Shown: piece by piece, positions 466 to 17,313 of the stretch
How the letters are laid out: every line of letters begins with the position of its first letter
Numbering within the stretch: the first letter of the stretch is position 1
DNA from: a virus
Direction: 5' to 3' (one strand)
DNA length: 20,611 nt
IMG/VR virus record: IMGVR_UViG_3300013131_004634
Location: 1-20,611 of that record
Translations under genes and position numbers: made by a program
Notes under the pieces: model-generated
The model's input: the letters and a program-made list of their open reading frames with translations, nothing else
Told to the model about the DNA's origin: nothing
The model's database searches: none

Positions 466-2476
466 TCTAAGTCGGAGTAGTTATGTCACACAATCCAAAC
501 GTCAGAACAATATATGGGATGTCAAATGAGCCGACCGGCTTTCACAATAGAACAGACTCCGCGATAAGTTTTGACAACGGCACTCGTACGCTTACCGTTG
601 CTCCAAATACCCCAACCAGCAGCCAGTTCGAGTACTACGCACAAGGAATAAAATATACGCATCTTTCATCTGCATCGAAGCAGATCACAGATACAGAAGG
701 GCTGTGGCATTTCTACTTTGACGGGTACACTCTAGAGGCCGCTCAGTCGTTCGATATAAGCATGATTACGAGCAAGGCCCATGTAGCTATTTTGTACTGG
801 AATGCGTCTGATAATGAGGCGGTATACTTTGGAGAGGAGCGCCATGGCCTAACGATGGACGGGGCTACGCATAGATGCTTGCACAATCTTAATGGCGCAG
901 TTTATATAAACGGCCTAGGGTTAGATGACTTTGTCGTAGATGGCACGGGAAACAATGATTCGCACGCTCACCTCTCGGTCGCAGATGGCACAATTTATGA
1001 TGAAGATATAGTTCATTCTATAGTGGACGGCTCCCCGCAGACGCTTTCGACTATCGCCGAGCTACCAGTGCTATACCGTCTCGGAGCAGCCGGCAACTGG
1101 AGAAAGAAAACGGCTGATACTTTTCCAGTGATATACCCCGGCACAGTGGCTAGCTACGGACTAACCAATACCCTGCTGGCATATAATGATTTTGATGGCA
1201 CGACATGGAGCTTGCAAGAAGTGTCAAGCGGTAACTATGTGCTCGTGCACATAGTGGCAACTAACGACATAGACACGCCAATGATTGCGATTCTCGGCAC
1301 AAATGAATATGCCAACAAAAATGATGCGAGGGCAGGGGCTAGGGTTGAGCTAGCATCTCTGACAGGGCTGCCGTTTGCAGAGCTAGTTCCAGTGGGTACC
1401 GTTATCTTCGAAGTGTCAAGTGGTTATACAAATGCCGTAAAGGCTCGAATAGTATCGGCCGACACCGGCGTTAATTATGTAGACTTCAGGCCCGCCGGCT
1501 TCTTTAGCAAGTAGCCACCTGGTTGCGCAAGTGCTTTTCTGGCTAGTACTAATAATGCAGCCAAGCTTTGCGAGCGCATTGCAATCAGGGGTAGCCCGTG
1601 ACATTTAATCCTATAACTCCAGTTCTTGTTATAAGAAATATCTCTAAGTCTGACGTCAATATTCTTGGCGTCAAGATTCGTCCAGGCCAGCAGAAGGATA
1701 TTTATCAGGAGCTGGAGTACGACGAAAATGGATCGCTGACAACTACCGTACTTAAAGAGCTAGAGACACCTAATGGTAAAATCTACCGCTTGTGGAAGGT
1801 TCTTGACGTTATTCGCATCATTCAGTGTGTAAATCCAACGCACTTCGGCTCTGGCCTTACCCCCGACTCTATAACTGCATCAAACGCTTATTTTGAAGGA
1901 GCGGTTCTCGGTTATGAAAATGGGGAGTTTAAGTGGCTCTCAGGCGGTGGCGGAGGTGGCGTTTCAGCTGTCACGGCTAGCTCTCCGCTCGCCTCAAGCG
2001 GCGGCTCTACTCCAAATCTTACAATCGGCGGAGGCACCCCCGGCCAGGTACTGACATCTGACGGCGGCACCTCGCCTACTTGGGAAGATCTGCCTGCGCC
2101 TCCTGCGGCGGATTGGACTCGTACTGGCACGGTACTAAGCCCGACAGCTGCTGGCGATACGGTTTCGGTTGAGATTCCATTTGGAACGGTGGGCCTAGTT
2201 GTAGAAGAATCTGCTGCAGCTTTCCGTACATCTGTGTCGCCCGCAGTGGTAACTCTCGAGGATAATCTAAAGCGGGCAGAGCTAAATGCTAATTCAGCAT
2301 CTCTGACGTTGAAAGGCGATACTGCCGAAGCTGTTGCTCCGGCTATAGTTGCGCAGGATGAGACCGGCTCTCCATATGCCCTTGATCTACAGATGCTAGA
2401 GCTCGCAGTAAATGGCGATGTAGGCGCTGCCGGCCAGGTCCTTACCTCCGGCGGTCCTGGCGCAGCTCCTACGTGG
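109..2476 (+). repeat. Fibre module repeated three times across two genes
   Basis: Three copies of a roughly 17-19 residue module are visible: bases 109-159 (GAAGTILTNDGYGALSW), 2027-2083 (GGGTPGQVLTSDGGTSPTW) and 2423-2476 (GAAGQVLTSGGPGAAPTW). The first is in the partial fibre gene and the other two are in the large fibre gene. Shared features are a Gly-rich lead, [TQ]-[IV]-L-T, a Gly-rich turn and a closing Trp. Such modules are common connectors between domains of phage fibres. Their presence in both genes suggests domain shuffling or duplication within the fibre locus. The coordinates given span from first to last copy; intervening DNA is not repeated. Confidence 0.6.
483..1514 (+). CDS. 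Putative virion structural / tail-associated protein (343 aa)
   Basis: The ATG lies 7 bases after GGAG (cggag-tagtt-atg), and the gene follows the previous one by 17 bases. The N-terminus has a GFHNRTDSAISFDNGTRTLTV stretch that I recognise as a style common in uncharacterised virion proteins of large environmental phages. The rest is a mixed beta-rich protein with no enzymatic motif, signal peptide or clear membrane segment. Its position between two fibre-type genes supports a role in the tail or in host contact; this is inference from context. It ends with TAG at 1512-1514. The same frame then stays open for 28 more codons and ends in a TGA that overlaps the next gene's GTG start by four bases, so a small read-through extension is possible (see findings). 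Alternatives are a baseplate component or a fibre adaptor. Confidence 0.65.
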   Translation: MSHNPNVRTIYGMSNEPTGFHNRTDSAISFDNGTRTLTVAPNTPTSSQFEYYAQGIKYTHLSSASKQITDTEGLWHFYFDGYTLEAAQSFDISMITSKAHVAILYWNASDNEAVYFGEERHGLTMDGATHRCLHNLNGAVYINGLGLDDFVVDGTGNNDSHAHLSVADGTIYDEDIVHSIVDGSPQTLSTIAELPVLYRLGAAGNWRKKTADTFPVIYPGTVASYGLTNTLLAYNDFDGTTWSLQEVSSGNYVLVHIVATNDIDTPMIAILGTNEYANKNDARAGARVELASLTGLPFAELVPVGTVIFEVSSGYTNAVKARIVSADTGVNYVDFRPAGFFSK

Positions 2477-5400
2477 ACCGCGGCGTCTAGCGACTTTGCA
2501 TATGATCAAGAAGTTTTTGTAGCCAAGAATGGCAGCGATGTCACTGGTACTGGTTCTGTTTTAAATCCGTTTGCATCGGTTGGCGCCGCTATGGCTGCAA
2601 TTACCGACTCTTCACCATCAAAGAGATATGCAATTAGGGTTGAGGCCGGAGCCTACACCGAGTCATCTGCTCTAAATATCAAACCCGATGTCTATATCAT
2701 AGGTGCGCTGAAAGACGCAGTTCGAATTACCGCCCCATCGTTCGGCCTAGATGCATTATTTACGGGAGCAGGCGACAAGCGGTCTGGTGTTGCACAAGCG
2801 ATTCTTATTGGAACCTGTGCATTTAACATGACATCTGTGACCTCTAACGAGGGCAAACTTTCATTTCACGGAGTATCTTTTAACAGTCCAATATCAATCA
2901 CTGGCTTCACCGGTACAAACCAGGCTCAGTTCGACAGCTGTCTGTTTTTTGGAGCTATCTCATTCAGCGGCGTTAATGTCGGTTCATTTGTTAACAATCG
3001 CTGTTTCACATCTATTTCACTGTCCCAGCACCCAAGCCTTCCAACAATACTAAACGCTGCAGGTGGTTTCGCAGATAGCCTGACCGCTACTGCCGCAGTA
3101 AATAACTTCAGTCGCCGCTGCAGCGTCTTTGCTCGTAGCATGAAATTTGATGGAACAGTTACTGTAGACGGACCTTCAGCATACTTTGACTATACCGTAT
3201 GCAGCCTGCCACAAGCAGGTCCCGTTTCACTAAATGGTGGCAATTTGGTAAGCGTAGACTGGGGCGCGAATAAGGAACTCTCAAATCTCGTATTCCCAAC
3301 CAAAGTCAACAATCCAATTATTCCTGCTTCTACCAATGCCACAAACCACGGTGACTGGGGGTATCAGTGGTTCTGGAATTTTGGCTATCTTCACGCGTCT
3401 ACAGGCACAGATTGCTACCTAGTCTCGTACCCATCTGCATTCGGAGCCGAAACAGATGCAGGTAAAAATGTATACCTTGTTGCTGATGCTGCAGGTCTCG
3501 CTGCCGATATCGATGGCGGTGGCGTCGGCATGTACAGCAGCAATGCGTCCGGCACCGGGGACAGCGGTCCAATTGTGGCAGAAACTGGTACTGCCGTAGA
3601 CGGATATAGTGGCGACATAACGCTGACTACTGGGTCAGTATCTGGTACCGGTACGCGAGGCGTCATTAGCCTGAATGGCCGACATATAAATGCGAACAGC
3701 ACAAAGATCGCAAATCTCGCTGATGGTACAGATCCAAGCGATGCAGTAAACAAGGGCCAGCTTGACGCGCTTGCTACCACCAGCTCTTTCCTTGTACCAG
3801 CAGCGGTTAAATACGACTTCCCTGGTGCTGCCGGACCTACTGTCATTGATCCGGTGGCGCCCCCGACGGCAACCGGCTCTACATTTACGGTAGGCACGCT
3901 CGGAGGAGAAGACTTTACAGATCTAGCAACTGCCCTTGCAGATTCTTCAGTGGTGAATGGCAGTCGCCTCCTATTGTCTGCTCAGGAATTTACACTGACT
4001 TCGCAGCTGAATATTGGCAAGCAAGTAATAATTCAGGGCGCTGGTCGGTCTAGCACGACAATCAAAACCACTGGTCTTGGAACCGGGGTTTTCTACATGC
4101 TTAATATCACTACAAGCAATGTTGTTCTACGCGACATGACCATTAGTGATCTGAGAGCCGCGCCTACCTCTAATGATTCGGCGATCAACATCTCTGCAGG
4201 AGCTGGGTCGTCTGGGCACTACCTTGAGAATGTAGTCGTAAACTTCGGGGAATTCGGCGTAATTATAAAGAGCGATGGCTGGCAGATTAACAATTGTCAC
4301 ATCGCATACGTAGGACCTAACAATGCTACGCGCCGAGGTATTGGCATCTACAGGTCCGCTGGACAGGGCTTGTTTACCAATAGTACGTATGATTCAGGTC
4401 AAAATGGTGTTATAACAGGAAACACTCGGCTGATAGCGATAGTAACCGGAGCAGCCCCTCCCGACGAGGTTCTTGGAGGCTATCTCCGAATTGGAAATAT
4501 TACTCCGTCAAATGCATTTCCAATACACCAGTTTTTTAACTGTGAATATTTCGCACCAGCTGCAACCCCACTGACGTTCTGTGTAGACGGATGCACTGCG
4601 GCAGAAACCAGTGCCTTCGTTGTATTTGCCAACGCAGTAACGCAGCCAGTTCTTAGTCAGTGTCAAGAGATAGTATTCCAGAACAATACATTCACAAATG
4701 CGCATGGAAAGGGCGGATTTGCTCTGAACGGCGCAACCGGCGGCCCCGCGAGCCCTGGAATCACTACATTCTATGCTAGCGGTAATACGATATCCTCTAC
4801 TGGATTTCTTGGTAACTTTGCTACCGCTATCGACGGCAGCGCTGATCCAGCCGTCCTTGCTCAAATGGGTTACGATACCTTGCGCTGGACAGACCCAAAT
4901 CAAACTGTCTCAGCAGTTAGCTCAGGCTTGGCCGGTCTATTGACGGTAGACGGTGTTTCACTATCAGATGGTGAACGTGTATTTGTAGTTGACGCTAGTG
5001 ATGGCATAAATAGCGGCATCTATATCGCAAGCGCATCAGAATGGGCAAGGTCGGCGGACTTTGACGACGGCAAAAATGCACGCGGCACATTTTTCTTTGT
5101 TAACAAGGGAGATGTCTACTCAAATACAGCCTGGCTATGCACAAACACAGATGGGCTAGATGTAGTGGCAACGGACGCACTCACGTTCGAGCAGTTTGGA
5201 AATACTGCTGGCAATGATCCAGATGCCATTGTCATAAGTCTAAATACCTCGACTAATGCAGTTGTTGCAGGCGAAGCTGTGTGCGCAGATTCTGCTGCCG
5301 CGCGGACTGTCAAAAAAGCAGATGTTTCTGCACTAGCAACTGCTCGAGTAATCGGAATTGCAGTAGGCGACGGCAAGGTACAGACTGCCGGCATAGCCCT

Positions 5401-5578
5401 TGCCAAGTTTACATCAGCGCCATCAATAGGCGATGCTGCTTATCTATCTGCAACTACTGGTCAGCTCACTGGTACAGCTCCAGTTTCAGGTATTGAAGCG
5501 GAAGTAGGTATAGTTGTGGACAATGTAGCAGTTGACGGCAAGTATGCGGTAGCGCTTCAGATCAAGAAGCCGGTTTGA
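1598..5578 (+). CDS. Large tail fibre/spike with two beta-helix-like regions (1326 aa)
   Basis: Start is GTG at 1598 with AGGGG 6-10 bases upstream. Residues 1-105 look like a virion-attachment head. A Gly-rich hinge (about 113-120) is followed by two fibre modules ending in P-T-W (residues 144-162 and 276-293). From about 305 a V-A-K-N-G-S-D-x-x-G-x-G-S-x-x-N-P-F-A-S-V motif opens a right-handed beta-helix (pectin-lyase-like) region to roughly 560. Residues about 696-725 hold a motif known from many fibres (K-I-x-N-L-A-D-G-T-x-P-S-D-A-V-N-K-G-Q-L-D). A second beta-helix-like region spans about 755-1090. Residues 1100-1200 carry a known phage fibre domain (V-D-G-V-x-L-x-D-G-x-R-V-x-V-x-D-x-x-D-x-x-N-S-G-I-Y). 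The final 115 residues resemble small beta-barrel capsid/fibre caps (DUF2190-like). Expected role: receptor binding or glycan degradation at the tail tip. No catalytic residues can be assigned from sequence alone. Confidence 0.8.
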   Translation: MTFNPITPVLVIRNISKSDVNILGVKIRPGQQKDIYQELEYDENGSLTTTVLKELETPNGKIYRLWKVLDVIRIIQCVNPTHFGSGLTPDSITASNAYFEGAVLGYENGEFKWLSGGGGGGVSAVTASSPLASSGGSTPNLTIGGGTPGQVLTSDGGTSPTWEDLPAPPAADWTRTGTVLSPTAAGDTVSVEIPFGTVGLVVEESAAAFRTSVSPAVVTLEDNLKRAELNANSASLTLKGDTAEAVAPAIVAQDETGSPYALDLQMLELAVNGDVGAAGQVLTSGGPGAAPTWTAASSDFAYDQEVFVAKNGSDVTGTGSVLNPFASVGAAMAAITDSSPSKRYAIRVEAGAYTESSALNIKPDVYIIGALKDAVRITAPSFGLDALFTGAGDKRSGVAQAILIGTCAFNMTSVTSNEGKLSFHGVSFNSPISITGFTGTNQAQFDSCLFFGAISFSGVNVGSFVNNRCFTSISLSQHPSLPTILNAAGGFADSLTATAAVNNFSRRCSVFARSMKFDGTVTVDGPSAYFDYTVCSLPQAGPVSLNGGNLVSVDWGANKELSNLVFPTKVNNPIIPASTNATNHGDWGYQWFWNFGYLHASTGTDCYLVSYPSAFGAETDAGKNVYLVADAAGLAADIDGGGVGMYSSNASGTGDSGPIVAETGTAVDGYSGDITLTTGSVSGTGTRGVISLNGRHINANSTKIANLADGTDPSDAVNKGQLDALATTSSFLVPAAVKYDFPGAAGPTVIDPVAPPTATGSTFTVGTLGGEDFTDLATALADSSVVNGSRLLLSAQEFTLTSQLNIGKQVIIQGAGRSSTTIKTTGLGTGVFYMLNITTSNVVLRDMTISDLRAAPTSNDSAINISAGAGSSGHYLENVVVNFGEFGVIIKSDGWQINNCHIAYVGPNNATRRGIGIYRSAGQGLFTNSTYDSGQNGVITGNTRLIAIVTGAAPPDEVLGGYLRIGNITPSNAFPIHQFFNCEYFAPAATPLTFCVDGCTAAETSAFVVFANAVTQPVLSQCQEIVFQNNTFTNAHGKGGFALNGATGGPASPGITTFYASGNTISSTGFLGNFATAIDGSADPAVLAQMGYDTLRWTDPNQTVSAVSSGLAGLLTVDGVSLSDGERVFVVDASDGINSGIYIASASEWARSADFDDGKNARGTFFFVNKGDVYSNTAWLCTNTDGLDVVATDALTFEQFGNTAGNDPDAIVISLNTSTNAVVAGEAVCADSAAARTVKKADVSALATARVIGIAVGDGKVQTAGIALAKFTSAPSIGDAAYLSATTGQLTGTAPVSGIEAEVGIVVDNVAVDGKYAVALQIKKPV

Positions 5579-5615
5579 ATTAGACAGCAAAGCTTGACAC
5601 AAACAGGAGAAAACG

Positions 5616-5723
5616 ATGAAAACTCTTAAGCCAAATCCGCCTGTACCGCCACCGTCTCCAGCGCCCGGCCCTGCCGGGCCTGGGCCAACTCCCGTTCCTG
5701 ATCCAGAAAAGGAAAACGAGTGA
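5616..5723 (+). CDS. Small proline-rich peptide (35 aa)
   Basis: A short ORF starts with ATG at 5616, five bases after a strong AGGAGA, and ends in TGA at 5721-5723. The product begins MKTLKPNPPVPPPSPAPGP and ends in an acidic/basic tail (DPEKENE). Around 40% of residues are proline, so it should be extended and disordered, with polyproline-II character. It lies 37 bases after the giant fibre gene and just before the hairpin that ends the + strand block, so it is probably the last gene of the late structural transcript. I do not recognise a family. A role as a small linker, fibre accessory or chaperone-like peptide would be guesswork. The ribosome binding site and clean position support a real gene; the main risk is its shortness. 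Confidence 0.55.
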   Translation: MKTLKPNPPVPPPSPAPGPAGPGPTPVPDPEKENE

Positions 5724-5742
5724 TATAGTTGAGTACAAAAGA

Positions 5743-5768
5743 AAGAGGGGCGGTTTTCCGCCCCTCTT
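5743..5768. terminator. Bidirectional rho-independent terminator between convergent blocks
   Basis: A perfect 11-bp stem (aagaggggcgg / ccgcccctctt) with a tttt loop lies between the end of the + strand structural genes and the end of the - strand operon. On the - strand it is followed by a U-rich tract (ctctttctttt). On the + strand the tail (cttgtctatt) is weaker but still U-rich. It is well placed to serve both directions. Confidence 0.85.
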
Positions 5769-5786
5769 GTCTATTATTGCCGAATG

Positions 5787-6368
5787 TCAGCCTACGTCAG
5801 CGCTGATGATAAAGCCGTGCGCGTCAGTCGTCAGCAGGATGCGGCTGGTGTTGGTATCACCGGGCATAGCAGAGCCAGGAGGAAGAACTCGGAAATCCGA
5901 GATCGTGCCCTTGGTCTGCAGATCCTGCAGGCGCATGCGAGCTGAGGTGACGTTGACGCCCTCGAACTCCCGAGCAAGCTGCTCTAGGCGGCCCGGCTCC
6001 GCAGCCTTGCGGACGCGGCCATTGGCACGGCTAGCTGCATCACGCTGGCGCTTTTCCTGTAGCTCCGAGTACTTGACAAGGACATCTGGAGCGAGAGCGG
6101 CACCGCCTAGGGTTGGATTAAAACCACCATCAGCAGTGGCTCCACCAGTCGCCTCGGCAGCAGCTTTGGCAGCGGTACGACGAGCAGCAGCGCGGTCACG
6201 CGGAGCATCGCTGCTCTGCTTGTCGGCAAGGGCCGTCTCTAGGGCCGAGACACGAGCCTCAAGGGCCTCGACAAGAGCCGAGAGATCGGCAAAGCGGGTG
6301 TCAGCGGTATCGCCCGTTTGCGCTGCCACTGTCTCTGTAGCGGTTTCGGTCTTCTTTGACTTAGTCAT
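5787..6368 (-). CDS. Hypothetical protein with N-terminal coiled coil (193 aa)
   Basis: The ATG at 6368 is preceded by AAAGGAG with 7-base spacing, and it overlaps the end of the upstream desulfurase-like gene by 8 bases, so the two are probably translationally coupled. After a Lys/Thr-rich start, residues about 28-50 show a heptad pattern (LSALVEALEARVSALETAL) expected to form a coiled coil. A long Ala/Arg-rich, probably disordered stretch (50-125) follows, then a more ordered C-terminal third with F-R-V-L-P-P-G-S and ending in DAHGFIISADVG. No catalytic motif, signal peptide or membrane segment is visible, and I do not recognise a family. The layout would suit a scaffolding or oligomerising factor, but nothing in the sequence proves it. 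It is the last gene before the convergent terminator. Confidence 0.6.
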   Translation of the reverse strand: MTKSKKTETATETVAAQTGDTADTRFADLSALVEALEARVSALETALADKQSSDAPRDRAAARRTAAKAAAEATGGATADGGFNPTLGGAALAPDVLVKYSELQEKRQRDAASRANGRVRKAAEPGRLEQLAREFEGVNVTSARMRLQDLQTKGTISDFRVLPPGSAMPGDTNTSRILLTTDAHGFIISADVG

Positions 6369-7461
6369 TCACTTTCTCCTTTGGGCAGTACGCCCGTAAC
6401 ATACGATCCGTTTTCTTTACAATCTCTAGCGCGTCTAACAAGTCACAGTCTTTTGTCAAGCGATCCCAACTTAGCCTCAGGCTGCAGCCAGCCCTATCCT
6501 CTCCTAGCATTGCCGTTATCACATGAGAACCGGCAGCCATCCCAGAGTTACAGGCAGATCCCGCACTTATACTTAGCCCAGCGTCACTAGCCTCTTGGAC
6601 AAAAAGATCAGACGGCAAGCCGGTATAATAGTTGGCAATAAATGAACCACTGCCATTTAGCTGCCAGCCAAGATCGGCTGCAGCCTCTTCTATAGTCGCA
6701 AGAAACCGGCTATTTTTTTCTGCTAGGGCAACCCCGTGCGGGCTGGCAATCCAGTCCATAGCATCTGCCAGGCATGATATGCCGATCATGTTTGGGCTGC
6801 CACCAACAACCCCGCCGAGGCCTTCGGTAGGTTGGTCGTCCCACAGGTCTTTCGTACCACACAGTAGTCCAAGGCCGGGTAAGCCATGCCACTTGCCAGC
6901 TGAAGCAAAAATATAATCTGCTTCGGAAAGCAGAGGGTCTCTCCAGTCGCCGCCGGTTGCATCTACGACCAGGCGCATACCACGCCGCCGAGCAGCCGTG
7001 ATTCCCGCACGTACCTTTTCTCCCGGTACGATGCCGGTCTCATTGTTCTTTAGACTAATTACGAGTACGTCTCCATCCCCGCATCGACCAAGTCCATATC
7101 GGCTCGTGGGATCTAAAGCACTATCGCTCAGCTGCCCATCTGCACCTACCTGTAGCGTAAAGTCTGCAACCGATAGCGAGCAGTTGTGTTCGGTGGCAGG
7201 CACATAAAAAGCAAAACCCTTCTCTGCGCGCAACTTCGTGCTTAAAAACCGAATTGCCGCAGTGCCAGAGCCAAGGAAACTTAGATCGATTGGATCCCGG
7301 CCCAGATGCCCTGCAATCCTGCTCTTACATGAAGCCAAGAAGTCACGACTCTCTACTCCAAGGGCATTGCCAGATGGTCGATGGAGACGCAGTGCCCGCG
7401 TAATGCTGCCGTCTACTCGTGGGTGTGGGGCATTTAGTGCAGCTCGATCTAGGTTTATCAT
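6361..7461 (-). CDS. Cysteine desulfurase-like PLP enzyme (NifS/IscS fold, 366 aa)
   Basis: This is a class V aminotransferase-fold, PLP-dependent enzyme of the cysteine desulfurase type, which takes sulfur from cysteine as an enzyme persulfide. Visible landmarks are the phosphate-binding turn LSFLGSGTAAI (about 60-70), His92 in ATEHN, N-N-E-T-G (139-143), the PLP-contacting Asp167 in VVDAT, the probable Schiff-base Lys190 in SAGKWHG, and the sulfur-accepting Cys304 in S-A-G-S-A-C-N-S-G. It is shorter than IscS (about 404 aa) and differs at known positions: IscS has Gln three residues after the PLP Asp (Gly170 here) and His before the Lys (Gly189 here). It could therefore be a divergent desulfurase or a related lyase. 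It has its own promoter (7486-7514) and starts at ATG 7461 after GGTGAG. No IscU, TusA or Dnd partner is in the window. Possible uses are tRNA thiolation, nucleic-acid sulfur modification or Fe-S supply; none is proven. Confidence 0.8.
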   Translation of the reverse strand: MINLDRAALNAPHPRVDGSITRALRLHRPSGNALGVESRDFLASCKSRIAGHLGRDPIDLSFLGSGTAAIRFLSTKLRAEKGFAFYVPATEHNCSLSVADFTLQVGADGQLSDSALDPTSRYGLGRCGDGDVLVISLKNNETGIVPGEKVRAGITAARRRGMRLVVDATGGDWRDPLLSEADYIFASAGKWHGLPGLGLLCGTKDLWDDQPTEGLGGVVGGSPNMIGISCLADAMDWIASPHGVALAEKNSRFLATIEEAAADLGWQLNGSGSFIANYYTGLPSDLFVQEASDAGLSISAGSACNSGMAAGSHVITAMLGEDRAGCSLRLSWDRLTKDCDLLDALEIVKKTDRMLRAYCPKEKVND

Positions 7462-7485
7462 CTCTCACCGTTCAGCATTTTAAGT

Positions 7486-7514
7486 AGAATAATGCAGAAT
7501 TCCGCTCACGTCAA
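7486..7514 (-). promoter_or_regulatory. Sigma70-type promoter before the cysteine desulfurase-like gene
   Basis: On the - strand a TTGACG -35 box (7509-7514) and a TATTCT -10 box (7486-7491) are separated by exactly 17 bases. Five of six -35 bases and five of six -10 bases match the sigma70 consensus. The -10 ends 24 bases before the ATG at 7461, and the site directly follows the groEL terminator. This makes the downstream two-gene unit independent of the operon upstream. Confidence 0.75.
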
Positions 7515-7524
7515 CAAAAGAAGA

Positions 7525-7542
7525 AGGCCGGTTGCCCGGCCT
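7525..7542 (-). terminator. Rho-independent terminator after groEL
   Basis: A perfect 7-bp GC-rich stem (aggccgg / ccggcct) with a 4-base loop begins 4 bases after the groEL stop. On the - strand it is followed by a U-rich tract (tcttctttt). The promoter for the next gene begins immediately afterwards, so the two form a boundary between transcription units. Confidence 0.8.
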
Positions 7543-7546
7543 CTCT

Positions 7547-8509
7547 TCAACCCGCCTGCCCTTTTGCTGCAGACAGCGCTTTGATCAGATCTGTTTCTTC
7601 CGCAAAGCCGATCACAACATCCGTGCTTAGCAGCAGACCGGCCATACTACAAGCATGCTCTACCTCGCTGGTAATTACGCGGGCTGGATCAATGATTCCG
7701 CGCTCCAGAAGATTGCAGTACTCATTACGATTGCTATCATAACCAGTATGCTCATCGGTCGACTCGCGCACATTGTGCAGGACGACTTCGGCAGAACCAC
7801 CTCCATTCTTGATAATTTCCTGGAATGGAACCAGGAGAGCCTTGCGCAGGATATGAATGCCTACGTTTTGCTCTTCATTGCCCGTGTCAAAGTCGCGGAG
7901 CGAATCTGCGGCACGAATGAGCATCGTGCCCGCGCCTGGAACAATTCCCGACGAAGCAGCCGCCCGGGCAGCGAGCAGGGCATCCTCGTACAGATCGCGC
8001 TTCTCGCGTACCTCGGCGTCGGAGCGACCACCAACGATAATGTTGGCTACTCCTCCAGTGAGCATCGAGCGACGGCGGGTAAGAATATGACGGAAATCCT
8101 CTTCTGTCGTAACAGCAAGCTTTGCGTCAATCTCTTCTACTCGGCGCTCGATGTTTTCGGCCTGAGAGTCTGGCGGGATAATGATCGTCTTATCTAGACC
8201 AACCTGGATAAAACGAGCAGTACCGAGCTCGGCAAGCGAGAAACCCTCAAAGAGCGAATCACCGGCATCTGTTCGGCGAACCTTGGCGCCCGTGGCGGTA
8301 GCAAGATCCTCCATCAGATCGCGTCGGTCCTGACCGAAACCAGGTGCACGCACAGCGACTACATTAAGGATGCCGCGCATAGCGTTCTGCGCAAGGAGCT
8401 TGAGCGCGTCGCCTTCGATAGCTTCGGCAACAATAAGTAGAGGAACATTGGTCTGGTGAACCATGTTGAGAATCGCCGTAAAAGATTCGCGAACTTCTGC
8501 CTGAGCCAA
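7547..8509 (-). CDS. groEL: GroEL-like chaperonin, C-terminal part (after in-frame amber)
   Basis: This is the rest of the apical domain, the second half of the intermediate domain and the C-terminal equatorial domain of a group I chaperonin. It aligns by eye with E. coli GroEL: PLLIVAEAIEGDALKLLAQN, then MRGILNVVAVRAPGFG, the ATPase Asp in YEDALLAARAA (E. coli Asp398), the nucleotide-binding VPGAGTMLI, ILRKALLVPFQEIIKNGG, and GIIDPARVITSE. The Gly-Gly-Met tail of GroEL is absent, as in several phage chaperonins. The first possible start is a TTG at 8509 with no convincing Shine-Dalgarno, but recognisable sequence (DPRSAYIWLINGRLGSLAQ) extends upstream in the same frame to the TAG at 8558-8560. 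So this is most likely not a separate gene but the second half of one 570-codon gene. Without read-through, or another way past the stop, it would be untranslated. No GroES gene is in the window. Confidence 0.8.
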   Translation of the reverse strand: MAQAEVRESFTAILNMVHQTNVPLLIVAEAIEGDALKLLAQNAMRGILNVVAVRAPGFGQDRRDLMEDLATATGAKVRRTDAGDSLFEGFSLAELGTARFIQVGLDKTIIIPPDSQAENIERRVEEIDAKLAVTTEEDFRHILTRRRSMLTGGVANIIVGGRSDAEVREKRDLYEDALLAARAAASSGIVPGAGTMLIRAADSLRDFDTGNEEQNVGIHILRKALLVPFQEIIKNGGGSAEVVLHNVRESTDEHTGYDSNRNEYCNLLERGIIDPARVITSEVEHACSMAGLLLSTDVVIGFAEETDLIKALSAAKGQAG

Positions 8510-8557
8510 ACTGCCAAGGCGACCATTGATAAGCCAGATGTAGGCGCTGCGAGGATC

Positions 8558-8560
8558 CTA
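8558..8560 (-). other. In-frame TAG inside the groEL reading frame
   Basis: The - strand reads GGC AAC CCA TAG GAT CCT CGC. The codons before and after the TAG are in one frame (9259 and 8509 differ by exactly 250 codons), and GroEL homology continues on both sides. A single base change from CAG, AAG, GAG, TGG, TAC, TAT, TCG or TTG would explain it as a mutation or sequencing error. Read-through or ribosome hopping are the biological alternatives. Six other genes in the window end with TAG and no other long recognised gene contains one, so whole-genome reassignment of TAG is unlikely. Confidence 0.9.
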
Positions 8561-9259
8561 TGGGTTGCCGAATCGTGGATCAAGCTGGCTGAGGACGCCA
8601 TCTTCAATCCCGTCGCCATACACGGTACGCTGCTTCTCGAAGTCGCGCAGGAAGTGTTCGGTCACCATGCCACGGTCGAACTCGAAGCCCTTTGTAAGAG
8701 TGACCTTTGTGCTACTGCCCTTGCCCTCTTCCAGGGTAACAGTTGCGTCAGTGCCAACCTTGTCAAGAGTATCTGCGATAATACGACCGATTTCAGCATC
8801 ACCGTTAGCAGAGATAGTAGCTACGCGCAACAGGTCTTCGATGCCCTTGACGGGTACAGCTTGGTTCTCAACCCACTTGACAATACGCGAGCATGCGGCA
8901 TCGATGCCACGGCGCAGGCTCATGGGGTCTGTACCGAGGCTGATTTGCCGCTTGCCTTCCTGTACGATAGCATTGAGAAGGGTGATCGTACTCGAGGTCC
9001 CGTCGCCTGCAGCGCGAACAGACCGATTGCCGGCCTCGCGAGCGAGCTGAGCTCCCATGTTCTCAAGCGGATCCGAGAGTTCTACGTTCTTAGCAACCGT
9101 GATGCCGTCCTTGGTAAACTGATAACCCGTTGGGGTTTGGATCAGGACGTTGCGACCGCGTGGACCGAGCGTGCTCTTTACGGCAGCAGCAGTCTTCTCC
9201 AGGCCCCGTGTAATCTTATCCTGGGCATCTTTTCCGAATACAATGTCTCTTGCTTTCAT
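8558..9259 (-). CDS. groEL: GroEL-like chaperonin, N-terminal part ending at in-frame amber
   Basis: The ATG at 9259 follows GGAGAGT with proper spacing, 8 bases after the upstream gene's stop. The 233 residues cover the N-terminal equatorial domain, first intermediate segment and start of the apical domain. Landmarks are VKSTLGPRGRNVLI (24-40), TKDGITVAKNVEL (49-61), ENMGAQLAREA, the ATP/Mg-binding DGTSS at 86-90 (GroEL DGTTT), ATISANGD and GFEFDRGMVTEHF at the entry to the apical domain. It then runs into a segment about 22 residues longer than in E. coli GroEL and meets TAG at codon 234. The 233-residue product alone would lack most of the substrate-binding face and half of the ATPase domain. 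In phages, chaperonins of this type (for example that of Pseudomonas phage EL) fold phage proteins; the same job is inferred here if a full-length product is made. Confidence 0.82.
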   Translation of the reverse strand: MKARDIVFGKDAQDKITRGLEKTAAAVKSTLGPRGRNVLIQTPTGYQFTKDGITVAKNVELSDPLENMGAQLAREAGNRSVRAAGDGTSSTITLLNAIVQEGKRQISLGTDPMSLRRGIDAACSRIVKWVENQAVPVKGIEDLLRVATISANGDAEIGRIIADTLDKVGTDATVTLEEGKGSSTKVTLTKGFEFDRGMVTEHFLRDFEKQRTVYGDGIEDGVLSQLDPRFGNP

Positions 9260-9269
9260 CTACTCTCCG

Positions 9270-9686
9270 TTATACCGCAAAGGTATATTTATCAAACTTT
9301 AGATAACGATCTTTTAGGCGTTCGGCCCGACCTCGCATCTCATTATAAGCATCTTTACCAATAATGTCAATGGCTGGCTCCAAGATTCTTCCGATATTTA
9401 TTCTCAGACTGCCATCTTCGTATCGGCTTAGCAGGCACTCTAACCGCTGCATTCCTGCATTCCTGAAAGCATATCCGCGCAAGGCATCCAGAATAGTTTG
9501 ATCGAATTCTAAAATTCCCCAGCTGCGTTCATCAACTAGCCAAACAAGCGAGCCGTACAGGATGTGTGACCCGCTAGCAGTCACGAGCAGGGCGTCATCT
9601 ACTGGTACCTCTGCTGGAGGAAAAGGAAACATCACTGGCAGAAGTTTGCCAGTGACGATTTCCTCATTTATCCTGCGGATGCTCAT
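9270..9686 (-). CDS. Hypothetical protein (138 aa) upstream of groEL
   Basis: The ATG at 9686 overlaps the stop of the upstream gene (ATGA), and its TAA lies 10 bases before the groEL start, so it belongs to the same operon. The protein is soluble, with a hydrophobic mixed alpha/beta N-terminal half (LLPVMFPFPPAEVPVDDALL, then YGSLVWLVDERSWGILEFDQ) and a more helical, charged C-terminal half ending in RLKDRYLKFDKYTFAV. There is no signal peptide, membrane helix or recognised catalytic motif. I do not recognise a family. Close linkage to groEL could suggest a co-chaperonin or substrate. However, it lacks the GroES mobile-loop (G-G-I-V-L) pattern and is longer than GroES (97 aa), so I do not call it GroES. 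Confidence 0.65.
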   Translation of the reverse strand: MSIRRINEEIVTGKLLPVMFPFPPAEVPVDDALLVTASGSHILYGSLVWLVDERSWGILEFDQTILDALRGYAFRNAGMQRLECLLSRYEDGSLRINIGRILEPAIDIIGKDAYNEMRGRAERLKDRYLKFDKYTFAV

Positions 9687-9988
9687 TCCGCCGCTACCGT
9701 CTGCGTATCGCTGGCTTCGGCCACGACCGCTTTTTCAGCATCGTCATCCTCAATCTCAAGCAAGCTGACTTCAAAGGCATCGTCAGCGCCGGCGTCTACT
9801 CCTGCGATAACCTGCTCGCGCTCGCTTACGCGGCGACGGGTATCAGCGAGCAGGCGCTCGCCCTTCTCCTGAAGCAGGTGCAGCCGGTAGTAGGCGGCCA
9901 GAGGGTAGTTCTTTGGGAGGCGCTTGTTCTTCTTTAGCTCTTTGAGGGCAGCCTTGGCACGTTCACGGGACATTCTACGGTCAGTCAT
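9683..9988 (-). CDS. Small charged hypothetical protein (101 aa)
   Basis: The start at ATG 9988 overlaps the stop of the deformylase gene (TAATG), with AGGAG just inside that gene, and its TGA overlaps the next start, so it is tightly coupled in the operon. The first 65 residues are very basic and helical (MSRERAKAALKELKKNKRLP, then RLHLLQEKGERLLADTRRRV). The last 35 are acidic and probably disordered (LLEIEDDDAEKAVVAEA). This basic-helix/acidic-tail layout is seen in small nucleic-acid- or partner-binding phage proteins, but no known family is recognisable and no function is assigned. Confidence 0.65.
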   Translation of the reverse strand: MTDRRMSRERAKAALKELKKNKRLPKNYPLAAYYRLHLLQEKGERLLADTRRRVSEREQVIAGVDAGADDAFEVSLLEIEDDDAEKAVVAEASDTQTVAAE

Positions 9989-10416
9989 TATACTCTCCTT
10001 TTGTGCATTGTAATTCCATCAAGATGATCCAGCTCGTGCTGGAATGCAACGGCTTCGATACCGGTCAGAATTTCATCAGGACCGCTATCGCTACGAATCT
10101 TTATGCGGCTGAACCGGCGAGTGCAGTAAATTTCGCCAGGAAATGACAGGCAGCCTTCGCCGTCAAAAACGAAATCACCGCTCTGTTCAAGTATTTCGGG
10201 ATTGACATACGCTCGGATGCCGTTAAAATTTAGAACAAAAACGCGCAGGTCGCTGCCGATCTGGTTTTCCGCTAGACCTAGGCCACGCTCCTGTTCGCAT
10301 ATGTTTCTAAGAGCTGCTAGCAAGCCGGAGACGTCATCGTCCATACCTACTTCCCTGCAGCGTTCTTGCAGTAGTGGGCTATCACTTGGCAACAACTTGT
10401 ATTCTGAATTACTCAT
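9988..10416 (-). CDS. def: Peptide deformylase (142 aa)
   Basis: A metal-dependent enzyme that removes the formyl group from N-terminal formyl-methionine of nascent proteins. All three family motifs are present: GLGLAENQIG (45-54; family G-x-G-L-A-A-x-Q), EGCLS with metal ligand Cys89, and HELDH with ligands His127 and His131 and catalytic Glu128. The frame is open to 10524, but I choose the ATG at 10416. It overlaps the upstream stop as ATGA, follows GAGGATGG, and gives a protein starting just before the expected N-terminal helix; the upstream extension (MGEHCGRRNALHG...) reads across the preceding gene. At 142 residues it is shorter than bacterial enzymes (about 168), like other phage deformylases, which lack the C-terminal extension that can reach the ribosome exit. 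It sits with groEL downstream and Lon upstream in a protein-processing neighbourhood. Confidence 0.92.
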   Translation of the reverse strand: MSNSEYKLLPSDSPLLQERCREVGMDDDVSGLLAALRNICEQERGLGLAENQIGSDLRVFVLNFNGIRAYVNPEILEQSGDFVFDGEGCLSFPGEIYCTRRFSRIKIRSDSGPDEILTGIEAVAFQHELDHLDGITMHKRRV

Positions 10417-11000
10417 GGTGCCATCCTCTCGATCAGCTTGCGCCCCAGCAGCTCTTCGATCCAGTGAATTAGCACAAAGCCATGTCCCATGGAGCGCGTT
10501 TCGTCGGCCACAATGCTCTCCCAAGAGCCTGCATGATTGTTTGTAACATCAAAATCCCAAATCCACAGGTCGCCCTTGCGAATTTCGCCTATAAGCATCT
10601 CGGTCTCTTTCCAGCAAAAACGCTGTAGTTTTTGAAGGTATGCCGGAATGTATATCGCCTTTCTTGCTGGCACCAGTCCCATTCTTCCTAACGACCTTGT
10701 AATGAAGGAGAACTCTGGCACCGCACCACGGCCCATAGGATAGCGCACACCGCGCTCGTTCGAGTATCCGGCGATTCTCCATTCGTTCCATACGTGGGGA
10801 TCATCTTGACCTGGGTACTTCCTAGAGTACTGCCATAAGTTTTCAACAGTCCACGATTCGTAGCCGTATAGCTGAAGAGGTAGCTCATCTCGGACCATAG
10901 GGCTGAAACGCCTTGTCCAGGTTTTGGATCGCGACGTTACATTTAGAACATTGGAGCCTGGCGGAGCAGGGGTCGCAGGATTACAGAAAAAAACTGCCAT
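10413..11000 (-). CDS. Conserved phage protein of unknown function (195 aa)
   Basis: The ATG at 11000 lies 3 bases after the TAG of thymidylate kinase and in the same frame (TAG AGC ATG). Its TGA overlaps the deformylase start. The sequence begins MAVFFCNPATPAPPGSNVLN with V-T-S-R-S-K-T-W-T-R-R-F-S-P soon after, has W-T-V-E-N-L-W-Q-Y-S-R-K in the middle, and ends with a L-I-G-E-I-R-K-G-D-L-W-I-W-D-F-D stretch. From memory this pattern resembles an uncharacterised phage family (possibly DUF6939), a tentative assignment I could not check. It is rich in Trp and Arg, has no membrane segment, and no catalytic motif can be named. Co-transcription with tmk and def suggests an early or middle accessory role. 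Confidence 0.65.
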   Translation of the reverse strand: MAVFFCNPATPAPPGSNVLNVTSRSKTWTRRFSPMVRDELPLQLYGYESWTVENLWQYSRKYPGQDDPHVWNEWRIAGYSNERGVRYPMGRGAVPEFSFITRSLGRMGLVPARKAIYIPAYLQKLQRFCWKETEMLIGEIRKGDLWIWDFDVTNNHAGSWESIVADETRSMGHGFVLIHWIEELLGRKLIERMAP

Positions 11001-11003
11001 GCT

Positions 11004-11609
11004 CTATCCTACTGCGGCACGCACGCGCTGCGCGACCTCTTCTGGAGTGCCGCTGCCGTCAACCGCGATCCCGCCGACCATGTCCAGCATATTTTTATAG
11101 TTGGCATGAATTCGCTTTTGGGATTCTAATTTGTCAAAGATCTCTTCGACAGCAGTCCCCGATTTGAGCCGCCGCTGTATGCGCTCCCATGCCACGTCAA
11201 ACGGCAGCGATATCAAAACGGTGACATCGGCTGGCACAGCTACGGCATTAAACGATTTTACCAGGTCTAACGGCATATCAAGCGACTGGTATACGTAACT
11301 AGATAGGAGATAGCGATCAGACACCACGTCAATACCAGCCTGCAACGCAGGCCTGATTACGTTGTTATAGTGCTCTAGCCGATCAGCTGCAAAAAGCAGA
11401 GCAAGGGTAGCAGGGTTTGTTTCGCCGCCAGATCGCAGCAGCTCCCGCGCCAGACGACCGATTTCACCGCTGGATGGCTCCCCGGTGAGCATAGCTATCC
11501 GGCCTTCGGCCTTAAGAGTATCTACCAGAATGCCGCACTGCGTGCTAGACCCAACTCCGTCAGCACCTTCGATAACAATAAATCTTCCGTGTTCTACTTC
11601 GGTTGTCAT
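11004..11609 (-). CDS. tmk: Thymidylate kinase (201 aa), atypical P-loop
   Basis: It phosphorylates dTMP to dTDP for DNA synthesis. The length fits the family (200-215 aa). Landmarks are the N-terminal strand plus P-loop [15 protein letters not shown] (10-24), the EPSSGEIG turn (about 44-51), AADRLEHY (75-81), the [12 protein letters not shown] core with DR at 98-99, and a LID-like RIQRRLKSG segment near 134. The usual P-loop is G-x-D-G-x-G-K-[ST]-T; here the invariant lysine is serine (codon tct). Some bacterial thymidylate kinases also lack this lysine, so it may still be active. The start at 11609 follows GGGAGGG with 6-base spacing, downstream of the Lon terminator, so it probably opens the tmk-def-groEL operon. 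No clear promoter is visible in the 83-base gap. Confidence 0.88.
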
Positions 11610-11657
11610 GGCAAGCCCTCCCGGTACGGATCAGCTAGCGGAAATGAAAAGACACAA

Positions 11658-11683
11658 AAAAGGCCCGGTTTCCCGGGCCTTTT
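11658..11683 (-). terminator. Rho-independent terminator after lon
   Basis: An 11-bp stem (aaaaggcccgg / ccgggcctttt) with a 4-base loop lies 9 bases beyond the lon stop. On the - strand it ends in a run of six U (ccttttttgtg). It separates lon from the tmk-def-groEL operon. Confidence 0.88.
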
Positions 11684-11692
11684 CTTAATTCA

Positions 11693-14110
11693 TCAGGCTT
11701 CTGCGACTGGTACTCCGCCTGCAGAAAGCTTGAAGGCAAATCCGCCTTCAAGTGCATTCGACAGAACGGTGTCTACGGTCTTGGCGAAGATGAACTCCAT
11801 CTCTTCGCGAACAACTGGTGGGATATCCGCAAGATCCTTCTCGTTGCGAGCGGGTAGGATGACGCGACGGATACCACCGCGATGCGCGGCAAGTACCTTC
11901 TCCTTAATGCCTCCGACCGGAAGAACGTGGCCACGCAGCGTGACCTCTCCACTCATGGCCGTATCAGCGCGAACATTACGACCAGTCAGCAGCGAGACAA
12001 GTGCGGTCGTAATGGTTACGCCAGCCGAGGGACCGTCCTTTGGAATAGCGCCCGCCGGGAAGTGAATGTGTAGATCATTCTTATCCAAGAAGTGCTCATC
12101 CAGTGATCCGGCTAGCCCTAGGTCTACGGCCTTGCTGCGAATCCAGCTCATGGCAGCCTGAGCTGACTCCTTCATGACGTCACCCAGTTGACCAGTTAGG
12201 GTTAGCGAACCCTTGCCGCCCATGCGCGTTGCCTCGATAAACAGCAGATCTCCGCCAGCAGCAGTCCAGGCAAGACCGGTCGCAACACCCGGCAGGGACG
12301 TGCGCTCAGCTGTTTCGTTAAAGTAGCGCTCCGCTCCAAGGATCTTGTCTAGGCGCTCTACATCGACGACTACTTTGTCAAAAGTCTTTTCAGCCGTATT
12401 TGTTAGTGCAACATCTACTGCGATAGAGCGACAGACGCCAGCCACTTCGCGCTCAAGGTTGCGAACTCCAGCCTCCCGGGTGTAGCTCATTGCGAGCTTC
12501 AGCAGGGTAGCGTCTGGAATCTCTACATGGTCGCTTGAAATGCCGTGCTCACGCAGCTGCTTTGGCACAAGGTGCTGCCGGGCGATAGCGAGCTTTTCTT
12601 CAAAAGTATAGCCAGGAACCTCGATAATCTCCATGCGATCCCGCAGGGGGGCAGGGATGGTGTCCAGCTGGTTGGCGGTGGCGATAAACAGAACCTTTGA
12701 CAGGTCGTATGGCACATCAAGGTAGTGATCCGCGAACGTGTTGTTCTGCTCTGGGTCAAGAACCTCGAGGAGTGCGGCGGCGGGATCACCACGAACGTCA
12801 TGACCTAGCTTGTCGATCTCGTCAAGAAGCACTACCGGGTTGCTTGTACCCGACTTCTTCATACCCTGGATAATACGACCGGGCAGGGCGCCGATATACG
12901 TGCGACGGTGGCCTCGGATCTCGGCTTCGTCACGGACGCCGCCAAGCGCAATACGATGGAACTTGCGACCAAGGGCATCGGCAATAGAACGGCCAAGTGA
13001 AGTCTTACCAACGCCAGGTGGGCCTACAAAGCATAGGATTGGACCCTTCATATCGCTCTTGAGCTTGCGAACGGCGAGATACTCGACGATGCGCTTTTTA
13101 ATCTTTTCTAGACCGTAGTGGTCTTCGTCGAGCTGCCGTTGAGCATTGCTGATATCAAGATTGTCGGTAGAAACCTTTGACCACGGCAGGTCCGCGAGCC
13201 ATTCAAGATATGTACGTGCAACGGTGTACTCGGCCTGGCTGGGCTGCATATTGCGGATACGGCGCAGCTCACGATTAGCGGCTTTCTCCGCATCCTCTGG
13301 CATATTGGCGTTGCGCAACCGGCGCTCAAGCTCTTCGATGCCGTTCTCATCGTCTTCGCGCTCGCCCAGCTCTTCCTTGATGGCCTTCATCTGCTGGCGG
13401 AGGTAGTAGTCGCGCTGCGACTTGCTCATCTCGCCCTTGACATGCGAGTTAATCTTGTTGGAGATTTTGGTAACTTCGGCCTGCCGAGTAATTAGCTCAA
13501 GTACTCGCTTAAGGCGAACCTTAAGGTGCGCGGCTTCTAGTACTTCCTGCTTCTCTTCGATACCGGCGTCGATATTAGCCGTAATAAGATCAGCCAGATG
13601 GCCCGGGTCGCTGATGTTGTCCAGCAGCTGCTTTGCCATTACGGGCAGATCAGGGAGCATGTCGATGACCTCGCGAGCGGTCTCTTTTAGGTTGGCGGCG
13701 AGAGCATCTACCTCTACTTCTCTAGCGCCCTCGTCTTCGATAAGCTCGATTCGAGCACGCAGGAATGGATCGGTCTGCGTAACTTCCGCTAGGCGGAAGC
13801 GCGCAAGGCCCTCTACAACAACCGAAAATCCGTCTTTGCCAGTGCGAGTAAGCTTGATTACCCGCGCAACAGTTCCTACCTTATAGAGGTCCATTGGAGC
13901 AGGATCGTCAACCTCGGGGGACTGCTGAGCTACAATTGCAATAAGAGAGCTCTCTTCGATAGTGTCCTCAATAAGCCGAATAGTGCGAGCTCGGCCAATT
14001 GTAAGCGGCATTACTGCGCCCGGGAAAAATACGCTATTTCGCAGAGGCAGCAGCGGCAGATCCTCTGGAAGATCGCGTAGATCAAACTTGGGCTTGTTAC
14101 TGAGTGTCAT
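11693..14110 (-). CDS. lon: ATP-dependent Lon protease, full length (805 aa)
   Basis: A complete LonA-type protease that unfolds and degrades misfolded or regulatory proteins in the cytoplasm. The N-terminal substrate domain begins [20 protein letters not shown] (18-37). A coiled-coil linker (about 205-290) leads to the AAA+ domain with Walker [10 protein letters not shown] (363-371), Walker B VVLLDEID with Asp430/Glu431, and sensor region LFIATAN. The protease domain has the catalytic Ser695 in PKDGPSAG and Lys738 in [14 protein letters not shown]; their 43-residue spacing matches E. coli Ser679/Lys722. Length is near that of bacterial Lon (784 aa in E. coli), so nothing appears missing. The ATG at 14110 follows AGGAG by 5 bases. 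Terminators lie on both sides, making it a single-gene unit. A complete Lon in a phage is uncommon; it may act on host regulators or on misfolded phage proteins (inference). Confidence 0.96.
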
Positions 14111-14146
14111 TCAAACTCCTATTGCTTTCTCTTTAGAACCACCCCG

Positions 14147-14175
14147 AATATAGCTTACAAACTAAACTCGGTCGG
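14147..14175 (-). promoter_or_regulatory. Possible promoter for lon
   Basis: On the - strand a TATATT -10-like box (14147-14152) lies 17 bases from a weak -35 (CCGACC, 14170-14175; only three matches to TTGACA). It is in the only gap between the upstream terminator and the lon start, where a promoter is expected. The weak -35 suggests either a phage-specific or activator-dependent promoter, or that the match is chance. Confidence 0.3.
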
Positions 14176-14198
14176 GTCTAGCGATGATGGTCTTACAT

Positions 14199-14225
14199 AA
14201 AAAAAGCAGACACCTATGTGCCTGC
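14199..14225 (-). terminator. Rho-independent terminator upstream of lon
   Basis: On the - strand an 8-bp stem with one G-U pair (gcaggcac / gtgtctgc) and a 4-base loop is followed by seven U. The stop codon (TAG) of the 106-aa gene lies inside the hairpin. It closes the long ligase-lysozyme transcript before lon. Confidence 0.82.
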
Positions 14226-14534
14226 TGGTGGATCGATCATGCTCTCGGACGGTGGACTGGGTGTTGCCGGAGGCGTAGGAACAGGGCCGCGCAGTGATAT
14301 TCGCTGTTTGCCGGCAGGATCAATTTCTAAGTCGTAAAGCCAGCTGGCAGAGTCGTATTCACGAAGTAGCTGGTTCGCAGTCATTCGCAACTCATTATCA
14401 GGGAGGAATTCGAAGAAATGCTGCCATGGAACTTCATAAAGGGAGAACCGCACTGGGCCTTCCATTGGTATTTCGTTACAGAGGAAACTTATCGTACACA
14501 CAGCCCCTGGTATCAGGATGTCTGTCGCGGGCAT
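14214..14534 (-). CDS. Hypothetical protein with proline-rich tail (106 aa)
   Basis: The ATG at 14534 follows GAGGA with 5-base spacing and lies 16 bases after the lysozyme stop. Residues 1-80 look like a small folded domain (ILIPGAVCTISFLCNEIP, then FSLYEVPWQHFFEFLPDNE and a helix RMTANQLLREYDSASW). The last 25 residues are Pro/Ser/Thr-rich (GPVPTPPATPSPPSESMIDP) and probably disordered. There is no membrane helix or lipobox, so it is not an obvious holin or spanin despite its place next to the lysozyme. I do not recognise a family. The TAG stop is embedded in the terminator hairpin. The proline-rich tail recalls the small peptide at 5616-5723 in composition only. Confidence 0.62.
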   Translation of the reverse strand: MPATDILIPGAVCTISFLCNEIPMEGPVRFSLYEVPWQHFFEFLPDNELRMTANQLLREYDSASWLYDLEIDPAGKQRISLRGPVPTPPATPSPPSESMIDPPAGT

Positions 14535-14550
14535 AGCTTCCTCGCTGCTT

Positions 14551-15018
14551 TCATGATTTAAAGTATAAATCTGCTTCCTCCGCTCGTCTTTTTGTAAGGC
14601 CCTTCATTACTCGACCAGCTGCTTTGTTCCAGCGCAAGAACTCGTCCCTTATGGTCGGATCTTTTGTATTTGCATTAAGTTTCTTCAGTAGCGTGCTGCC
14701 CTTTAGCGCGCCTAGGCCCACGTTGTAGGCGAAGCAAACCAGAGCGTCGAACTGGTTTTGATTAATGTCGTCACGGCACAGCGAGTCAACTCCGCGCTCG
14801 TAGTGATCGAGCAGCTGAGCCAGGAGCTGCGTTGCTCGATCTTCTGTGATGGGTGGGTCCGCCATTGTTACTTTGCGCCCGTCCTCGTAGTAAGTGGACC
14901 CATATCCGATGGTAAAAGGAACTCCGCCAGTTGCAGGATCAGGATATGGCTTGGCGCTAAAGCCTTCAAACTTTTTAATTAGGTTGATTCCAGCAGCTGA
15001 AGTTTTGGTAATTTTCAT
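14551..15018 (-). CDS. Phage lysozyme (GH24 endolysin, 155 aa)
   Basis: It hydrolyses the peptidoglycan glycan strand for host lysis. It matches the lambdoid/T4-type lysozyme fold: IKKFEGFSAKPYPDP gives the catalytic Glu18 and Asp27, nine residues apart as in T4 Glu11/Asp20, followed by F-T-I-G-Y-G-S-T with Thr36. The helical lobe has QNQFDALVCFAYNVG, GSTLLKKLNA and a C-terminal R-W-N-K-A-A-G-R-V-M-K-G-L-T-K-R-R-A-E-E. Length is typical. There is no signal peptide or signal-anchor, so export would need a holin, and none is visible nearby. The ATG at 15018 lies 3 bases after the ligase stop and uses a weak GAG-type site, so translation is probably coupled. A less usual alternative is a virion-borne lysozyme. 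Confidence 0.93.
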   Translation of the reverse strand: MKITKTSAAGINLIKKFEGFSAKPYPDPATGGVPFTIGYGSTYYEDGRKVTMADPPITEDRATQLLAQLLDHYERGVDSLCRDDINQNQFDALVCFAYNVGLGALKGSTLLKKLNANTKDPTIRDEFLRWNKAAGRVMKGLTKRRAEEADLYFKS

Positions 15019-15021
15019 GGT

Positions 15022-16131
15022 TCACTCATAATCTCTAATGGCGACAACATACGGAAATCGTGGTACGCCATCAGGCGTTAGGTTGAAGTATTTTACAGTA
15101 GCTAGTTTGCCGACTAGCTCGTCTTTGCCTGCCAGCAGGCCGCGCAAGTAGTCGCGGTCGCCCTTGATGTTCGAGTTGAACTCTGTGCCTGCGGCATTCT
15201 TGAAGAGCATGGACGCTGCCATTCCGGTCTTATTGCCTTCGCCCTCTACTACTCCCAAGATAGTGAATTCCTCGTCACGAAACTCTTTGCGCTTGAGCAG
15301 GCTGCGGCTGCGCTTGAACTCGTAGGGCGTATTTAGCCGCACCATTTGCCCTTCGTAGCCGTCGTTCATATACTTTTCGTATAGGGCGTCAAGTGCGGGT
15401 GCATCGGCAACCAGCTCAGTAGGCACGCGGCGGATAGCCGGATGGTCTGGCAGGTTATCGAGTAACCACTGGTTCCGCTCAGAAAAGCGCATGGCGGGGT
15501 CTGCAACATCGTAGATCCAGTACTGAATAGTAGCAGCACTCTCTTTGAGATCAGCGCCGTTGGGCTTGGTCTTTTTTACAAGAGAGCAAATCTTGTTAAA
15601 ATCATTTACTAGTTTGTCGCAGTAAAGCTCGCCATCTAGTACCACATTTGGAAATTTTTGAAAAAGTCCAGCGAGGGCCTCACGGATATGAGGGGCACTG
15701 ACGATAGGCTTGCCGTTGCGGGAGTTGATTGAATCCGCAGTAACGACGCACCGGATGCCGTCGTATTTGGGTTGGCTATAGATCGGGAATGCGATGTCGT
15801 CGGCATAATCGTCATAGCTCTTGGCCAGCATTGGCTCTACGAACTTGCGCTGATCAATGTCTGCGACATTTTCTCTGTAGCCTGAATCCAGCTTCTTTTT
15901 CCACTTAGCCTGGGCTTCCAGAAGCGCCTGCTGCTCGTCAGTTGTAGCGTTTTTGCGGCCAGTGTTTTTGCCGTGACAGACAGTCCACTCGGAAGTTATC
16001 TTTTTGCCATCTACCTGGCCCGAGATTGTTCTAAAGCGTGGTCCCTGGACTTCGGCGATCCATACTTGGACGGCTCCTGTCTCGGTGCGTGCATACAGGG
16101 GAGCGAGCTGCGTAATATCGCAATCTGACAT
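15022..16131 (-). CDS. ATP-dependent DNA ligase with WGR-like N-terminal domain (369 aa)
   Basis: It seals nicks in duplex DNA during phage replication, using ATP. The first 85 residues resemble the WGR-like domain found fused to many phage ligases (QVWIAEVQGPRFRTISGQVD ... CHGKNTGRKNATTDEQQALL). The nucleotidyltransferase core has motif I PKYDGIR with adenylated Lys122, motif III V-L-D-G-E-L-Y (164-170), motif IV DGYEGQMVR (257-265) and motif V LLKRKEF with Lys280/Lys282. A short OB-like domain completes it (about 285-369). The ATG at 16131 follows AAAGGA with 9-base spacing. The reading frame stays open upstream through the G+C island to the TAG of the preceding gene, but no ATG, GTG or TTG occurs there, so the chosen start stands. 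Ligation of RNA rather than DNA is a less likely alternative. Confidence 0.93.
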   Translation of the reverse strand: MSDCDITQLAPLYARTETGAVQVWIAEVQGPRFRTISGQVDGKKITSEWTVCHGKNTGRKNATTDEQQALLEAQAKWKKKLDSGYRENVADIDQRKFVEPMLAKSYDDYADDIAFPIYSQPKYDGIRCVVTADSINSRNGKPIVSAPHIREALAGLFQKFPNVVLDGELYCDKLVNDFNKICSLVKKTKPNGADLKESAATIQYWIYDVADPAMRFSERNQWLLDNLPDHPAIRRVPTELVADAPALDALYEKYMNDGYEGQMVRLNTPYEFKRSRSLLKRKEFRDEEFTILGVVEGEGNKTGMAASMLFKNAAGTEFNSNIKGDRDYLRGLLAGKDELVGKLATVKYFNLTPDGVPRFPYVVAIRDYE

Positions 16132-16157
16132 TTTTTTGTTTCCTTTGGTGATTTTTT

Positions 16158-16240
16158 CCGGCGCGGCGCGGCGGACCGGATCGGGCGGCGCGGGGCGCGG
16201 CGGCGGCCCCCGCCCGGGCGCGCGGGCGCGGGCGCGCGCG
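16158..16240. other. 83-base nearly pure G+C island
   Basis: Only three of 83 bases are A or T (16175, 16180, 16181), while flanking DNA is ordinary mixed sequence. It is dense in GCGC/CGCG and CGGCGG steps, including repeated gcgcgg units at 16220-16240. It could fold, for example cgggcgg (16182-16188) with ccgcccg (16210-16216), and ggggc with gcccc inside that stem. It fills most of the 120-base gap between the 168-aa gene and the ligase. It does not look like a normal terminator, since no U tract follows on the - strand. No gene is supported in it. Confidence 0.85.
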
Positions 16241-16251
16241 TTACCCGTGGT

Positions 16252-16758: not shown

Positions 16759-16760
16759 AT

Positions 16761-17312: not shown

Positions 17313-17313
17313 A

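Follow-up and report, generated by a model that had tools for sequence, protein, structure and literature searches.

A private in-frame TAG in a phage groEL gene, probably a sporadic nonsense change in a single contig

Introduction

The locus described here raises a simple question: is an in-frame TAG codon inside an otherwise well-preserved phage groEL gene read through, so that the phage makes a full-length chaperonin together with a shortened one, or is it an accident confined to one sequence? The window, by which we mean the whole stretch of DNA analysed, is a 20.6-kb virus record with phage genes for tail-like proteins, lysozyme, DNA ligase, thymidylate kinase, Lon protease and peptide deformylase. 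The original prediction, made from the letters of this stretch, had placed a very recent mutation or an assembly error beside read-through as possible explanations. We have set the gene against a nearly identical sister contig and a series of more distant relatives, and the comparison favours the accident.

Results

The groEL gene and its internal stop

The interrupted gene is a group I chaperonin of the GroEL/Cpn60 family, with a predicted chaperone and ATPase function (Table 1). Its single internal stop is the TAG at codon 234, and the frame ends at a TGA at codon 571. When read through the TAG, the whole frame matches the Cpn60_TCP1 profile from position 2 to 486 of 490, with 216.7 bits against a curated cut-off of 34.3. 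Taken alone, the N-terminal part matches profile positions 2-200 with its residues 24-209, and the C-terminal part matches positions 235-486 with its residues 21-316. The ATPase motifs TLGP, TKDG, GDGT, EDAL and GIIDP are retained. PGAG replaces the usual PGGG/AGGG, but this departure is common to every aligned relative and is therefore not a mark of decay.

The TAG is the sole lesion in the gene. Beyond it, the earliest listed start codon, a TTG at 8509, is not preceded by a Shine-Dalgarno-like sequence. In these respects the gene is as the original prediction had described it: a single in-frame TAG with the frame open for 233 codons before it and 336 after, a Cpn60 match on each side, ATPase landmarks kept in both parts, no decay in the rest of the gene, and just a TTG start without a ribosome binding site for the C-terminal half.

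Table 1. Coordinates of the features discussed (window positions unless another record is given)
Feature	Coordinates	Strand	Basis or remark
groEL (group I chaperonin), 570 codons, one internal TAG	7547-9259	minus	Pfam PF00118 across frame
In-frame TAG, codon 234, private to this record; differing base 8560	8558-8560	minus	Comparison with sister contig and relatives
groEL N-terminal open part, 233 residues	8558-9259	minus	Pfam Cpn60_TCP1, E 4.1e-26
groEL C-terminal open part, 336 residues, same frame	7547-8557	minus	Pfam Cpn60_TCP1, E 8.3e-37
Apical insertion, codons ~215-255	8460-8620	minus	Variable in sequence
Peptide deformylase, thymidylate kinase and Lon protease genes	9988-14110	minus	Near groEL
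DUF6939 gene	10413-11000	minus	PF22075
groEL insert in relatives	L005:6673-7635; L006:8052-9014; L007:8155-9117		In-frame between GDG and TT
GroES-like co-chaperonin in 371-kb relative	G002:C1:330550-330798

The region of codon 234 is an apical-domain insertion of ~25 residues relative to solved chaperonins: query residues 214 to 255-260 span about 41-46 residues, compared with 16-18 in solved GroELs. When the relatives are aligned, few stretches are less conserved than columns 215-240, and the insertion characteristic of this subgroup is five residues longer in L009. The break thus created lies inside the apical domain and not at a domain boundary. A product ending at residue 233 would lack most of the apical domain as well as the C-terminal half of the equatorial (ATPase) domain and, from the known domain layout of GroEL, would probably not work as a chaperonin.

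Selection on the two parts of the gene is equally strong. The dN/dS ratio between the window and L005 is 0.034 before the TAG and 0.019 after it, and between the window and L003 it is 0.044 before and 0.036 after. Because constraint beyond the TAG equals that ahead of it, groEL was functional until very recently, or is still functional and the TAG is an error.

The genes near groEL include those for peptide deformylase and thymidylate kinase, and one for a Lon protease that is full-length and has its substrate-binding, AAA and proteolytic domains. A DUF6939 gene lies between those for thymidylate kinase and peptide deformylase, where L005 has a short spacer instead. A GroES-like co-chaperonin is encoded in the 371-kb relative, ~190 kb from that relative's groEL; neither the window nor any of the other, shorter records yielded one.

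Codon 234 in the sister contig and relatives

The sister contig, IMGVR_UViG_3300013126_004901 (L002), forms a gap-free alignment with window positions 1-17393 and is 99.983% identical over those 17,393 bases. The two differ by three substitutions in total, at 8560, 15608 and 16708, and at all three the sister has G or C where the window has A or T. At 8560 the sister has a Glu codon, and its groEL is intact, with all 570 residues open. At 15608 the window again stands alone, having the base of a Val codon in place of the Ala codon's base found in the sister and the relatives. The change at 16708 is in a third codon position, and its direction could not be assigned.

Among the other relatives, protein identity to the window GroEL is 97% for L005, 91% for L003 and L004 (which do not differ from each other in the stretch compared), 90% for L006 and L007, and 72% for L009. 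Codon 234 specifies Asp in L005, Glu in L003/L004, L006 and L007, and Ala, beside a short length difference, in L009. The sister and all these relatives have G as the first base of this codon, and the T of the window is therefore the derived state. The uninterrupted frame, absent from the window record, is present in the sister contig and the relatives.

Comparison of homologous phage groEL genes at this codon, a check suggested in the original prediction, accordingly returned a sense codon in the sister and in every close relative found. That prediction had also named the finding that would weigh against it, namely sense codons in all related phages combined with no full-length protein from this isolate; the codon part is what we observe in all related phages found. 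When the viral collection was scanned for further contigs of this population with a DNA pattern that allowed any base at the key position, the sister contig alone was returned, near-identical records possibly having been excluded. A profile scan of viral contigs gave no additional relatives, and one of genome contigs gave one MAG match, which at 36% identity is not informative.

An apparent class 3 intein in the groEL of relatives

The groEL genes of L005, L006 and L007 contain an in-frame insert of 321 residues, placed exactly at GDG^TT of the GDGTT ATPase motif. The insert is absent from the groELs of the window, L002, L003/L004 and L009, and the empty site in the window gene lies near 8998 on the minus strand. 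It has matches to LAGLIDADG endonucleases (PF14528, PF05204), its ends match the gp41-1 intein (best entry 6riz), and it is 86% identical between the two lineages that carry one. Its first residue is Pro rather than Cys or Ser; it has His-Leu-Trp at 64-66, Cys301 and Thr319, and it ends in Thr-His-Asn, followed by Thr. Class 3 inteins have a Trp-Cys-Thr signature and no N-terminal nucleophile (PMC7664689). The insert fits this signature and, on the evidence of its residues, is apparently an intein of class 3 that carries a LAGLIDADG endonuclease. Among the 25 matches listed, related inteins in deposited phages occur in helicases, terminases and PhoH. A partial literature search turned up no GroEL intein in any title or abstract, and we consider this side finding of more interest than the TAG itself.

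Discussion

The TAG shows no sign of function. We consider it very likely to be a sporadic nonsense event confined to one contig, whether an error of base-calling or assembly or a point mutation that is very recent and unselected. This reading follows from the codon being private and derived and missing from a sister that is 99.98% identical, circumstances that make an error or a very recent mutation the most likely cause, and not a device of expression. It was one of the two explanations in the original prediction, and it is the one that the sister and all the close relatives found now favour. In either form the event would have put a TAG into an otherwise intact phage groEL. If the TAG is real, translation would halt after 233 residues, and the genome would be without a working phage chaperonin and dependent on that of the host. 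About 2.5% of the possible single substitutions in this groEL create a stop, and 50 of its codons lie one G-to-T step from one, so that an occasional case of this kind is to be expected among many metagenome contigs.

Read-through, whether by a suppressor tRNA of phage or host or through a leaky context, would give truncated and full-length GroEL from the one gene, and the intact and constrained frame past the TAG is what it would call for. The TAG is, however, conserved in no relative, including the sister, and the sequence downstream of it is identical in the sister, where no read-through is needed. The RNA past the TAG folds no better than shuffled sequences (z-score -0.08 for the 83 nt from the TAG). 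No tRNA gene was found in the window, the sister contig or the other loci, and none of the five tRNAs of the 371-kb relative has a CUA anticodon, so that a tRNA of this kind is lacking from the 20.6-kb window, the 33-kb sister contig and the 371-kb relative alike. A suppressor might sit elsewhere in the phage genome or in the host; even so, we regard read-through as very unlikely. The original prediction that it yields both forms of the protein is not supported, given an unconserved TAG, no suppressor tRNA found and a codon that serves as an ordinary stop here. A narrower version, in which a recent amber mutation is tolerated through host or phage suppression and truncated and full-length GroEL are produced side by side in this strain, seems to us extremely improbable. 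Were the TAG both real and translated, the phage chaperonin would offer an instance of stop suppression at the level of the strain.

Reassignment of TAG to an amino acid throughout this phage has a precedent in TAG-recoded phages (for example PMC9523058 and PMC10607447), but the ordinary use of the codon here speaks against it. Six other genes of the window terminate in TAG, exactly the number originally counted, as do 27 of the 176 long ORFs of the 371-kb relative, in which the open stretch beyond TAG is no longer than that beyond TAA or TGA. The thymidylate kinase gene stops at TAG in the window and at TAA in the same place in L005, and no CUA tRNA is present in the examined records. We also looked for an RF-1-family release factor in the window, the sister and the relatives' records and found none. 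On the strength of the ordinary TAG stops and of the one aligned to TAA we reject code reassignment, whose chance we take to be negligible; the original argument that TAG stops count against it was sound, TAG being an ordinary stop in this phage group. An established pseudogene, or a split gene with two useful products, is likewise hardly credible as a property of the phage lineage. The first stage of gene loss would look identical in a single contig, and a TTG start does lie past the TAG; on the other hand, that TTG is without a ribosome binding site, the break falls within a domain rather than between domains, no further lesion has accumulated, and the sister and other close relatives retain one intact gene under strong constraint.

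We thus return to a sporadic nonsense change as the explanation of this TAG. Literature searches on phage chaperonins produced nothing bearing on such a case. The practical implication is one of caution: before a nonsense codon seen in a single metagenome contig is taken as a sign of read-through or recoding, it should be compared with the codon in near-identical contigs.

Comparison with known systems

In some phages, such as the crAss-like phages, TAG has come to encode glutamine (code 15), and suppressor tRNAs are present. The present gene resembles those of code-15 phages in having an in-frame TAG within a conserved gene, but differs in that it has a lone TAG, seen in no other gene and on a single contig, that TAG is otherwise a stop, and that no suppressor tRNA was found. 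With other phage-encoded GroELs (Cpn60, PF00118) it shares a full-length frame match and retained ATPase motifs, and deposited phage GroELs are 31-40% identical to it among the best matches listed; compared with known phage and solved GroELs, it is set apart by its one TAG and, together with its subgroup, by the ~25-residue apical-domain insertion. The closest likeness is to the sporadic nonsense variants and errors of metagenome contigs, in which a private, derived, single-base change likewise interrupts an intact and constrained gene, and from which the present case differs in no tested feature.
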